From a virus, in IMG/VR virus record IMGVR_UViG_3300025769_000795, positions 1 through 24,775 of that record: a stretch of 24,775 nt of DNA; one strand, written 5' to 3'. The notes under the pieces are model-generated. The model was not told the origin of the DNA. It saw only the letters and a list, made by a program, of their open reading frames with translations, and searched no databases. Below are positions 15,809 to 18,945 of the stretch, piece after piece. Made by a program: the position numbers and the translations under genes. Within the stretch, counting starts at the first letter, position 1, and each line of letters begins with the position of its first letter.

Positions 15809-16547
15809 AAAAGTAAAAATAAATACATTAATAAAAAATACTGATAATCCTAGATATATAAAAGAGGATAAATTTAATAAACTTGTAAAATCTATTAAAG
15901 AATTCCCTGAAATGTTAGAAAAACGACCAATAATTGTAGATGAAAATATGATTGTATTAGGTGGTAATATGAGATTAAGAGCTTGTTTAGATGCAGGATT
16001 TAAAGAAGTTTGGATTGAGCAAGTTACTAATTGGACTGATAAACAAAAAAAAGAATTTATAATAAAAGATAATGTGGGATTTGGTGAATGGGATTGGGAC
16101 ATATTAGGTAATAATTACACTTTTGAGGAATTAGAAAATTGGGGTTTAGATATAAACTCGTTTGATATGGAAGATGAACAAACAGATTTACAAGAAGCAT
16201 ATACAAATAAAATTGATGCACCAACATATACACCGTCTGATGAAAAACCAAAATTAACAGAATTATTAGATGATGAAAAAACCAACCTATTAATTAAAAA
16301 AATAAAAGATTCAAAATTAAAAAAAACAGAAAAAGATTTTTTAACAAATGCAGCTTACAGACATTTAAAATTTGATTATGCAAAAATAGCAGATTATTAT
16401 GCACATAGTGAAAAAGATACACAAGAATTAATGGAAGATTTATCATTAATTATTATTGATTTTCAAAAAGCAATTGCACAAGGTTATTTGCAATTACGAG
16501 AAGAAATAACAAATCAATATATAGAAGAATATGGAGAAGAAGAATAA
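15801..16547 (+). CDS. ParB-like DNA-binding/nuclease-domain protein
   Basis: The 248-residue protein has an N-terminal ParB/sulfiredoxin-type domain: NTDNPRYIKEDKFNKLVKSI (13-32), the RPIIVDENMIVLGGNMRLRA segment (43-62), where GGNMRLRA corresponds to the GG-x-R-R-x-x-A motif, and the usual trailing NVGFGEWDWDIL. A mostly helical C-terminal region includes NAAYRHLKFDYAKIADYYAH and LSLIIIDFQKAIAQGYL, a pattern found in stand-alone phage ParB-like proteins. There is no ParA or segregation operon here. Aravind and colleagues described phage ParB-like domains as partners in DNA base-modification operons, and the next gene is a glycosyltransferase of the type they described. Function is inferred from that context. 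Confidence 0.65.
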   Translation: MPKKVKINTLIKNTDNPRYIKEDKFNKLVKSIKEFPEMLEKRPIIVDENMIVLGGNMRLRACLDAGFKEVWIEQVTNWTDKQKKEFIIKDNVGFGEWDWDILGNNYTFEELENWGLDINSFDMEDEQTDLQEAYTNKIDAPTYTPSDEKPKLTELLDDEKTNLLIKKIKDSKLKKTEKDFLTNAAYRHLKFDYAKIADYYAHSEKDTQELMEDLSLIIIDFQKAIAQGYLQLREEITNQYIEEYGEEE

Positions 16548-17394
16548 TGAATATGTAGTTTTTATTTTAACTTATGGTCGTTCTGCTAAAGTACATACGT
16601 ATGAAACTATAAGAAAACAAGGTTATAAAGGCAAAATATATTTAGTCTGTTCTGATGATGATAGTCAAGTAAATGATTACAAAAAAAACTTTCCTAATGA
16701 AGTCGTTGTATTTAATAAACAAGAATATGCAAATACATTTGACATTGGTGATAATTTTAATGATAATAGAGTTGTAGTTTATGCAAGAAATGCAATATTT
16801 AGCATTGCTGAAAAATTAGGATACAAATATTTTATTGTATTGGATGATGATTATACTGCTTTTAGATATACTGCAGATGCTAATGGAACATATTTAACCA
16901 AAGCAAGAAATGCTAAAAATTTAAGTGTTTTATTTGATATGATGCTTAAATATTACAAAAAAACCAATGCAGTGACTTTATGTATTGCACAAGGTGGTGA
17001 TTTTATTGGCGGTGAAAATTCAAGAGTTTTCAAAAAGAAATTAAGCAGAAAAGCTATGAATTTTTTTATATGTTCTACTGAAAGAAAGTTTCCATTTATA
17101 GGAAGGATAAATGAGGATGTTAATACCTATGTAAGATATGGCACATTAGGTCATATATTTTTAACAATTTGTGATTTACGACTAGAGCAATTAGACACAC
17201 AAAGCAACACAGGTGGCTTGACTGAATTTTATTTAGATGGTGGTACTTACGTTAAATCGTTTTATACAGTTTTATTTAATCCTTCTTGTACAAAAATAAA
17301 TCTAATGGGAAATAAAAATAAAAGATTACATCATATGATTAAATGGAATAACGCAGTTCCTAAACTTTTACAAGAAAATATTAAAAAAGTGTAA
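16531..17394 (+). CDS. GREB1/TET-associated-type glycosyltransferase, candidate DNA-base glycosyltransferase
   Basis: This 287-residue GT-A-type enzyme shows FILTYGRSAK (11-20), a GYKGKIYLVCSDDD segment (31-44), FNKQEY, ARNAIFSIAEKLGYKYF (85-101) and the LDDDY metal-binding motif (104-108), with NEDVNTYVRYGTLG (194-207) in the position of the acceptor or catalytic acidic loop. This layout resembles the TET-associated/GREB1-like glycosyltransferases, which include the base J glucosyltransferase of kinetoplastids and several phage enzymes that glycosylate modified DNA bases. It overlaps the ParB-like gene by 17 bases, so the two are translated together. No TET/JBP oxygenase or base hydroxymethylase is visible in the window; one may lie outside it. 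A protein substrate is the main alternative. Confidence 0.6.
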   Translation: MEKKNNEYVVFILTYGRSAKVHTYETIRKQGYKGKIYLVCSDDDSQVNDYKKNFPNEVVVFNKQEYANTFDIGDNFNDNRVVVYARNAIFSIAEKLGYKYFIVLDDDYTAFRYTADANGTYLTKARNAKNLSVLFDMMLKYYKKTNAVTLCIAQGGDFIGGENSRVFKKKLSRKAMNFFICSTERKFPFIGRINEDVNTYVRYGTLGHIFLTICDLRLEQLDTQSNTGGLTEFYLDGGTYVKSFYTVLFNPSCTKINLMGNKNKRLHHMIKWNNAVPKLLQENIKKV

Positions 17395-17410
17395 AAAAAC
17401 TTTCATATAT

Positions 17411-17433
17411 AAAATATTCTTTGTATCTTTATA
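17411..17433 (+). promoter_or_regulatory. Putative promoter/control element shared with 7756-7778
   Basis: Apart from one base this 23-base stretch is identical to 7756-7778, with the core CTTTGTATCTTTATA. It ends 17 bases before the ATG at 17451. It probably starts the accessory operon of small genes that ends at the terminator near 18945. Confidence 0.5.
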
Positions 17434-17450
17434 TTAAATAAAACAAAGAA

Positions 17451-17654
17451 ATGAAAGCTATCGCAAATAAAAATATAATTAGAAAATCAGGTACTAACAT
17501 TAAAAAAGGTACTATGGTAATTGTAAAAGATAAAAATTTGGTAATAAATTCTAAAGTTATGCCAGAAGTGTTAACTGATATAACTTTACCAAATGGTGAA
17601 AAGTTTCACACAACTAAAAGAATAGCAGATAAATATTTTAATTGGATAGTATAA
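17451..17654 (+). CDS. Small basic protein of unknown function
   Basis: The 67-residue protein starts MKAIANKNIIRKSGTNIKKG and is rich in Lys and Val/Ile, with the strand-like pattern TMVIVKDKNLVINSK and a C-terminal FHTTKRIADKYFNWIV. A small beta-rich basic fold is likely. It is the first gene of the accessory operon behind the shared control element. I recognise no family. Confidence 0.5.
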   Translation: MKAIANKNIIRKSGTNIKKGTMVIVKDKNLVINSKVMPEVLTDITLPNGEKFHTTKRIADKYFNWIV

Positions 17655-17661
17655 ACAATAT

Positions 17662-17744
17662 AGATACTGATAACCCGAGTATCGCAGAAACAGTTCCGAA
17701 ATTAGTCAGAACGTAGTCAAGTGAAAAAGGGCAGTATCTTTTTA
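17662..17744 (+). ncRNA. Candidate structured RNA / cis-regulatory element
   Basis: About 80 bases between two small genes fold strongly. The ends AGATACTG (17662-17669) and CAGTATCT (17732-17739) form a perfect 8-bp closing stem followed by TTTTT. Inside, CCC (17674-17676) can pair with GGG (17729-17731) next to the closing stem, leaving ATAA as a bulge. GTTC (17693-17696) pairs with GAAC (17709-17712) around a 12-base loop, and CGA/TCG at 17676-17684 can form a small hairpin. A second AGTATC at 17678-17683 competes for the 5' GATACT (17663-17668), so two folds exclude each other. The segment is about 41% G+C, clearly above its surroundings, and has no start codon. It matches no tRNA and no riboswitch or ribozyme that I recognise. 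Confidence 0.55.
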
Positions 17745-17755
17745 AAACAAAAAAA

Positions 17756-18019
17756 ATGAAAAAAACTTTTAATCCACCAATAAATAACTTTTTTACACCT
17801 TTAGCATATTATTTAGATTATTACAATATGGATAATAAATTTATAGGAAGTTTAAAATTAGAAGAACCAGTATCTAATAAAATAGGTTTTTATAGTAAAA
17901 CATATATTACACCAAAACACAATATAACATTAGATAATAAAAAGGTTATAAAAGCAGGTACAGATGTATATTATAAGCAAGAACAATTACAAGGTAAATT
18001 AATTTTAAAAAATATATAA
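17756..18019 (+). CDS. Small accessory protein, unknown
   Basis: This 87-residue protein begins MKKTFNPPINNFFTPLAYYL and continues with strand-like segments (FIGSLKLEEP, GFYSKTYITPKHN) and a Lys-rich end. It follows the structured RNA by 11 bases, so its translation or transcription could depend on the RNA fold. The stop codon overlaps the next start (TAATG). No family recognised. Confidence 0.5.
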   Translation: MKKTFNPPINNFFTPLAYYLDYYNMDNKFIGSLKLEEPVSNKIGFYSKTYITPKHNITLDNKKVIKAGTDVYYKQEQLQGKLILKNI

Positions 18020-18174
18020 TGTATATATTAAAATTAGGAGATAAGTTTATAATAAATAAAATATCTAGGTATGGTAAAAAAATAACTCAAAATGTTACAA
18101 TAATAGCTATTGTAAATAATAGAGTTGTATTAAGTAATGGTGATGAATATCACAAAAATAAAATAAATATATAA
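18019..18174 (+). CDS. Small beta-rich protein, unknown
   Basis: The 51-residue ORF starts at the ATG of a TAATG overlap and ends just 1 base before the next ATG, so it fills the gap exactly. It begins MYILKLGDKFIINKISRYGK and ends with NNRVVLSNGDEYHKNKI. The GDKF...VVLSNGDEY pattern suggests a small barrel similar to KOW or SH3-like folds. Spacing supports it as a real gene; its function is unknown. Confidence 0.5.
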   Translation: MYILKLGDKFIINKISRYGKKITQNVTIIAIVNNRVVLSNGDEYHKNKINI

Positions 18175-18175
18175 A

Positions 18176-18505
18176 ATGTCAGAAACAATAATAAAGTTAG
18201 AAGAAAACGATATTCTTTACAGTAGTTGGGGATATGAACAAACCAATATTAATTTTTATAAAGTTAAAAGGTTATGCGGCAAGACACAAGTCGAGCTAGT
18301 TAAAATAGAAAAGAAATATGCAGATGTACAAGATTCTCATACTACAGATAGTGTAATTCCTTATCCTGCATCAGAATTCCCTAAAAAGTTTAGAAGAAAA
18401 GTTTATAATCATACAAGACCAGGTGTAATGATAAAGTCTTATGAATGGGCTACTTTATGGGATGGCAAACCTAAACATCAAACAAATGCTCATTATGGGC
18501 ATTAA
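18176..18505 (+). CDS. Small conserved-type protein (WGYEQTN motif), unknown
   Basis: This 109-residue protein contains SSWGYEQTNINFYKVKRL (about 16-33) followed by a strand-like VELVKIEKKY segment, a pattern I associate with an uncharacterised family on plasmids, prophages and phages. The C-terminal part has a basic stretch (KKFRRKVYNH) and ends WDGKPKHQTNAHYGH. The family has no known function that I can cite. It lies inside the accessory operon. Its central segment resembles in layout that of the accessory gene at 7806-8288. Confidence 0.55.
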   Translation: MSETIIKLEENDILYSSWGYEQTNINFYKVKRLCGKTQVELVKIEKKYADVQDSHTTDSVIPYPASEFPKKFRRKVYNHTRPGVMIKSYEWATLWDGKPKHQTNAHYGH

Positions 18506-18887: not shown

Positions 18888-18915
18888 TAAATAAATATTT
18901 CATTTTTTGTTTTTA

Positions 18916-18945
18916 AAAGTCCTCTTGCAAAAGGGGATTTTTTTT
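18916..18945 (+). terminator. Rho-independent terminator with GCAA tetraloop
   Basis: TCCTCTT (18920-18926) pairs with AAGGGGA (18931-18937), including one T-G pair, around the stable tetraloop GCAA (18927-18930). Eight T residues follow (18938-18945). It separates the accessory operon from the packaging genes. Confidence 0.85.

Follow-up and report, generated by a model that had tools for sequence, protein, structure and literature searches.

Results

Gene content of the phage and its accessory operon

The window, by which we mean the whole 24,775-base IMG/VR virus record analyzed here, carries tail genes, a replication and recombination block, an accessory operon and the genes for the small and large terminase subunits; it also encodes a portal protein and the beginning of the major capsid protein, recognized partly by inspection. 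The best-ranked named phages for the terminase share less than 40% identity with it and have Bacteroides as hosts, so the phage probably infects a member of the Bacteroidota. A TET-associated glycosyltransferase (16531-17394; PF20691, E = 1.1e-35), with relatives in more than 500 viral stretches, has a PHROG match to beta-glucosyl-HMC-alpha-glucosyltransferase, which suggests that the phage DNA is modified. The window further encodes a DUF3799 PDDEXK protein, for which a role in recombination is only a guess. The features of the accessory operon are as follows.

17400-17450, + strand: presumed promoter plus 5' leader, from inspection of the sequence
17451-17654, + strand: 67-aa accessory ORF, first gene in the slot
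17662-17744, + strand: structured RNA element, type A member (fold z score, covariance model match, homologues)
17662-17669, + strand: 5' strand of stem P1, AGATACTG; compensatory changes with 17732-17739
17670-17673, + strand: AUAA bulge between P1 and P2; invariant columns in alignment A1
17674-17676, + strand: 5' strand of P2, CCC, partner 17729-17731; C-G becomes U-A in relatives
17678-17681, + strand: conserved AGUA word, shared with the alternative local hairpin
17678-17683, + strand: AGTATC, alternative partner for 17663-17668; predicted for nascent RNA, in part of the family only
17682-17685, + strand: 5' strand of P3, partner 17721-17724; double changes in 3 of 4 pairs
17693-17712, + strand: inner hairpin P4, GTTC/GAAC plus GA/TC, loop AATTAG; double changes in 4 of 6 pairs
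17729-17731, + strand: 3' strand of P2, GGG; covariation
17732-17739, + strand: 3' strand of P1, CAGTATCT; compensatory changes
17739-17743, + strand: T run, terminator-like tail; five or more T at every one of the 41 sites
17756-18019, + strand: 87-aa ORF immediately 3' of the RNA
18019-18505, + strand: two further ORFs, of 51 and 109 aa
18441-18887, + strand: final ORF, listed with 148 aa; true start probably more internal
18915-18942, + strand: ordinary intrinsic terminator closing the accessory operon ahead of the terminase genes

The leader holds TATCTTTA (17424-17431), which resembles a Bacteroidota -7 box and is the presumed promoter. The 67-aa ORF matches no Pfam or PHROGs family. At the other end, the ordinary terminator lies 27 nt past the last stop codon of the operon, which places the structured RNA inside the operon. 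Small proteins of 51-53 aa (GDKFxINKISRYGKKITQN..) recur behind the RNA, in the window at 18019-18174 and in the related locus L092 from about 2465; L092 has no 87-aa gene, so the gene 3' of the RNA is exchanged too. Other relatives carry a tRNA-like gene upstream of the same operon (L087, 2582-2652, also L088 and L089); the L087 copy scores 32.2 bits with the Rfam tRNA model, is not called by ARAGORN and has an odd anticodon loop around AATCCA.

A strongly folded RNA between two accessory genes

The first-pass annotation had described 17662-17744 as an undescribed structured RNA with two mutually exclusive folds in an accessory operon. Its sequence elements lie where it placed them: GATACT at 17663-17668 faces AGTATC both at 17678-17683 and at 17733-17738, the distal pairing extends to an 8-bp closing stem (AGATACTG, 17662-17669, with CAGTATCT, 17732-17739) followed by T to position 17743, and the CCC/GGG (17674-17676 with 17729-17731) and GTTC/GAAC (17693-17696 with 17709-17712) pairings are present. 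Two of its figures needed correction. The G+C content, given as about 41%, is 38.6% (27.3% for the window), and the next gene, at 17756, starts 12 rather than 11 bases after the T run; a terminator-like end directly 5' of a gene is indeed present.

Folding bore out the proposed structure. At -21.1 kcal/mol, the minimum free energy of 17655-17750 lies below the -10.95 +/- 2.71 of shuffled sequences (z = -3.75), and none of 200 shuffles did as well. The corresponding fold consists of the distal 8-bp stem, CCC/GGG and the inner hairpin. In full-length RNA the P1 pairing probability is 0.96-1.0 in all 12 members of the family (described below) that were tested. Our covariance model R1 matches the window at 17660-17744.

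The element is absent from Rfam, as a check proposed at the outset confirmed: Rfam 15 at gathering thresholds gives no match to a known class anywhere in the window, the type A element finds nothing up to E = 10, and types B and D find chance-level matches only. An apparent resemblance to words of hammerhead, twister and hairpin ribozymes was dropped given the empty Rfam search even at E = 10. We likewise do not claim a sarcin-ricin-like AGUA/GAA internal loop, as the position of GAA is inconsistent within type A.

An RNA family with constant ends and a variable interior

Homologues were reached step by step. The 87-aa neighbor led to loci L084-L086 and the 67-aa ORF to L092; pattern scans then added members from other phages, a search with the conserved small membrane protein encoded behind these yielded many more, and two more pattern scans rounded off the set. 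The resulting family, all of it from IMG/VR phages, comprises 28 distinct RNAs, occupies 41 distinct sites and falls into six size classes of 46-106 nt. Measured from P1 to its 3' strand, type E is 46 nt long (F is close to this), C 76, A 78-80 (the window type), D 104-105 and B 106.

The ends are constant and the interior varies. P1 has 7-10 bp in all types, and a run of at least five T ends every element (41/41 sites). Most members have the AUAA bulge, a short C/G stem and the AGUA word: types A, B, E and F run from P1 through the AUAA bulge and CCC/GGG to the AGUA word (AUAUA in F, so that AGUA itself is found in types A-E), and types C and D have a P1 of up to 10 bp and no AUAA bulge. AUAA, AGUA, AGAAAC and GUAGUC are conserved internal words. 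One member, L302, is a hybrid that joins a type C/D 5' half to a type A/B 3' half. A covariance model built on eight type A members reaches types B and E at E values of 1e-13 to 1e-8 and types C and D at 0.0004 to 0.002.

Model R1 detects at most one element per virus record (records up to 34 kb), a count that is a lower bound because its cut-off misses some type C and D copies. A tandem pair comes on top of the 41 sites: L379 (397-450 and 268-379, - strand), and L383 alike, carry two different family RNAs, each with its own T run, behind a single promoter-like box.

Searches outside these phages did not find the element. DNA similarity searches with types A, B and D against 50,697 phage records gave no matches or chance matches; among 84,980 genomes of bacteria and archaea, a pattern scan turned up 61 hits, none of which combined closing stem, bulge and T run; and 296 genomes belonging to the same order as an Aequorivita genome, searched with a model but without a positive control, yielded no hits. 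The literature on phage structured RNAs in marine Bacteroidota and on conserved flanks of accessory slots yielded nothing on the element.

Covariation in the long-range fold

The homologues show covariation that supports the distal-stem fold. In A1, an alignment of seven distinct close relatives made without a model, 11 of 23 pairs show double changes and 98.1% of cells are paired; the covariation score is 0.373 against 0.160 after shuffling, no shuffle out of 500 reached either the score or the paired cells, and slid controls scored 0.03-0.10. In A3 (21 distinct members), which is fitted to the model and therefore biased towards the structure, the figures are 18 of 23 pairs and 0.354 against 0.151, again with 0/500 shuffles as high. 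Type B alone adds two further double-change pairs, both in P3.

These changes come from several lineages: the window in P1, L092 and L139 in P1, P3 and P4, L142 in P4 and L092 in P2. Where the window has AGATACTG/CAGTATCT, P1 of L092 reads AGGTGCTG/CAGCACCT, and CTT/AAG takes the place of CCC/GGG. Counts of GU against AC pairs, which could tell selection on RNA from selection on a DNA strand, are uninformative on A3 because this alignment imposes the type A register on the inner helices of type B.

We treat the family as non-coding. Actual or remnant protein coding would account for one observation, a frame 2 that stays open for 35 codons through the whole type B element in 16 of 16 variants, yet it is very improbable and was rejected: of the variable sites in type B, 5 are synonymous and 12 non-synonymous, a proportion close to what the absence of selection predicts (20% synonymous), the frame is broken in types C and D, the 78-nt type A members and L330, and double changes track the helices. 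The window segment, which has ATA in place of ATG, contains no ATG start and no conserved frame, in agreement with the earlier statement that it lacks coding potential. The type B open frame (for example L261, 3779-3891) reads on in several cases, without a frameshift, into the small membrane protein that comes next.

The RNA borders an exchangeable accessory-gene slot

The RNA occurs at three genomic places: 5' of the terminase small subunit gene (the window and L092), 3' of the large subunit gene TerL (23 sites with RNA, 11 with an accessory ORF and 12 without) and 3' of the major capsid protein gene (11 sites with RNA, all with an ORF, and 16 without RNA). These counts are not frequencies, some loci having been chosen by RNA patterns. 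Always in sense, the RNA follows a presumed promoter and precedes a conserved gene in one of two layouts, promoter-RNA-gene or promoter-ORF-RNA-gene, with promoters inferred from sequence and shared position. In many relatives that lack the RNA the promoter leads directly to the gene; in L084-L086 the leader runs straight into the 87-aa gene, with neither the 67-aa ORF nor the RNA.

The variable small ORFs that precede the RNA form 19 sequence clusters. Eight of them were scanned against Pfam, with hits for two: one to a DUF7258 domain, the other a weak SH3-like match. A 38-aa zinc-ribbon-like ORF is also seen repeatedly. From the stop codon to P1 there are 6-30 nt (median 8), with at most 9 nt at 22 of 31 sites, and the next gene mostly follows 15-39 nt past the U run. 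The downstream genes vary between sites.

The window and L092 share an identical 67-aa ORF (0 of 204 nt differ), while their RNAs differ at 26 of 87 columns. Recombination of ORFs and of RNA halves is evident from this pair, from the occurrence of one RNA behind many ORFs and from the hybrid L302. Just 5' of position 2852 in L264, at the capsid-gene slot, an unrelated hairpin (GGTTAGGGG..AAACCCC..TTTTT) replaces the RNA behind the same 5' flank, AACAATATAG, and the preceding ORF is related to that of L352; no other hairpin type at the slot was convincing.

Such exchange raises the question of a DNA-level recombination site that captures ORF cassettes, as integron attC sites do. In both cases a single exchangeable ORF is followed by a hairpin of variable length, and the 19 ORF families, the same ORF with different RNAs in the window and L092, and the joined halves of L302 would all fit. 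We nevertheless rejected this explanation, which is largely refuted and highly implausible: the core sites RYYYAAC/GTTRRRY occur in none of 38 element sequences with flanks, no Phage_integrase domain (PF00589) was found in nine virus records, possibly fragments, with 14 of 14 controls positive, and a recombination site would leave the U run and the sense orientation unaccounted for.

A free-standing small RNA gene is the main, though somewhat unlikely, alternative. Here an RNA extending from P1 to the U run (80-110 nt in most types) would be released to act in trans on a host or phage mRNA or protein, and the ORFs would merely be inserted between the RNA and its promoter. At the 12 TerL-slot sites without an ORF, a promoter-like box directly followed by an RNA with its own U run is the layout of such a gene, and the single detected RNA per record of up to 34 kb, the four conserved internal words and the record with two different RNAs in tandem count in its favor. 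Against it, the RNA is always in sense and never apart from a downstream operon gene, and sizes of 46-106 nt with the same ends but divergent interiors argue against a single conserved target-pairing region.

Alternative folding of the nascent RNA

Of the two mutually exclusive folds proposed by the first-pass annotation, the local one is predicted in the window and in part of types A and B, but is not conserved across the family. In the window it appears in the unfinished transcript only, with a probability of about 0.9-0.98 up to about 64 nt; it falls to 0.00 once the distal strand is made, and at full length the distal stem forms instead. In the close subtype of the window, the local helix has 6-7 bp and -5.6 to -6.3 kcal/mol. 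It can form across A1 (with a G-U pair) and is thus not an accident of the window. When successive prefixes were folded, the hairpin dominated the nascent RNA in the window, L115 and L142, was partial in L092 and one type B member (it varies within type B) and was nearly absent from L139, L283 and types C, D and E. A two-state switch thus does not characterize the family as a whole. At most, the switch would be a feature of one branch.

An attenuator controlled by a ligand or protein, in which this 5' hairpin (UGCU with AGUA) competes with P1, was the reading first suggested for the locus, and we consider it quite unlikely. The dominance of the hairpin in three nascent RNAs until the 3' strand of P1 is made, and one hairpin pair changed on both sides in A1, speak for it; that one pair, however, is matched by 259 of 500 shuffles, the helix scores barely above shuffles, the pairing probability is near zero in L139, in types C, D and E and in some type B members, and the downstream genes share no function. 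A metabolite riboswitch is likewise not indicated, since the downstream genes are differing small proteins of unknown function.

Discussion

We propose, with about even confidence, that the RNA is a cis-acting structured terminator or attenuator at an exchangeable accessory-gene slot of phages that probably infect Bacteroidota. Transcription would start upstream, cross the small variable ORF if there is one, and then produce the RNA, in which P1, P2 and the inner helices would form one long interrupted hairpin. With a U run right after P1, RNA polymerase may terminate in a fraction of passages. At most sites the next gene follows soon after the U run and leaves no room for a promoter, so its expression from the upstream promoter needs read-through. 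The RNA could thereby act as a valve that sets the output of the accessory operon.

The tight spacing between stop codon and P1 suggests that ribosomes finishing the ORF counteract P1: a ribosome terminating 6-9 nt before P1 would hinder its formation and favor read-through. In E. coli, ribosomes repress a terminator almost completely if it lies a few bp past a gene (PMC4824070). The variety of downstream genes fits general operon control rather than one pathway. Several points count against the valve. The link to ribosomes is inapplicable at the 12 TerL-slot sites without an ORF; the many relatives without the RNA indicate that it is dispensable; and a plain hairpin would suffice for termination, which leaves the conserved internal loops unaccounted for. 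A more elaborate version, which we hold only tentatively and regard as unlikely, would make the RNA a new kind of phage operon valve: a receptor-like RNA domain inside the terminator stem, reused behind many ORFs, with read-through governed either by ORF translation or by a factor that may bind the internal loops.

The component parts are of known kinds: terminator, accessory slot and conserved border sequence. The loop of an intrinsic terminator is short, 3-8 nt. Intrinsic (Rho-independent) terminators resemble the RNA in having a GC-containing closing stem directly before at least five U; here, however, the stem closes a domain of about 30-90 nt whose internal loops are conserved and whose inner helices covary, and the closed region of about 62 nt is why a + strand terminator scan misses the window RNA. 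Riboswitches and attenuators also place a structured RNA with a terminator stem 5' of a gene; the present family differs in having no conserved downstream pathway, an alternative helix that is not family-wide and no Rfam class.

Phage morons are small accessory genes with a promoter and a terminator that lie between structural genes. The slot likewise holds a small accessory gene between structural genes with a presumed promoter and a terminator-like end, but the same promoter serves the downstream operon, and a conserved family found behind 19 ORF families makes up the 3' element. The element called PeSL reportedly joins an early phage promoter and a stem-loop terminator at one gene junction. 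As cited in PMC4503421 (Arbiol 2010; Comeau 2014), these promoter-terminator cassettes of T4-like phages also are conserved regulatory sequences bordering genes exchanged between related phages. Our case differs in that the RNA and the promoter-like box flank the exchanged ORF on opposite sides, a large conserved RNA takes the role of the stem-loop and the phages do not belong to the T4-like group.

The RNA family is new to Rfam and occurs in no named phage among those searched. With it, a marine virus group without a close cultured relative gains an RNA family backed by covariation. The RNA also marks the 3' border of a slot that exchanges many unrelated small ORFs, providing a sequence handle for spotting such accessory genes in metagenomes. 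If the more elaborate valve reading is true, any gene entering the slot would automatically be coupled to the rest of the accessory operon; and if the RNA sets operon read-through, it would show how phages swap accessory genes under common control.
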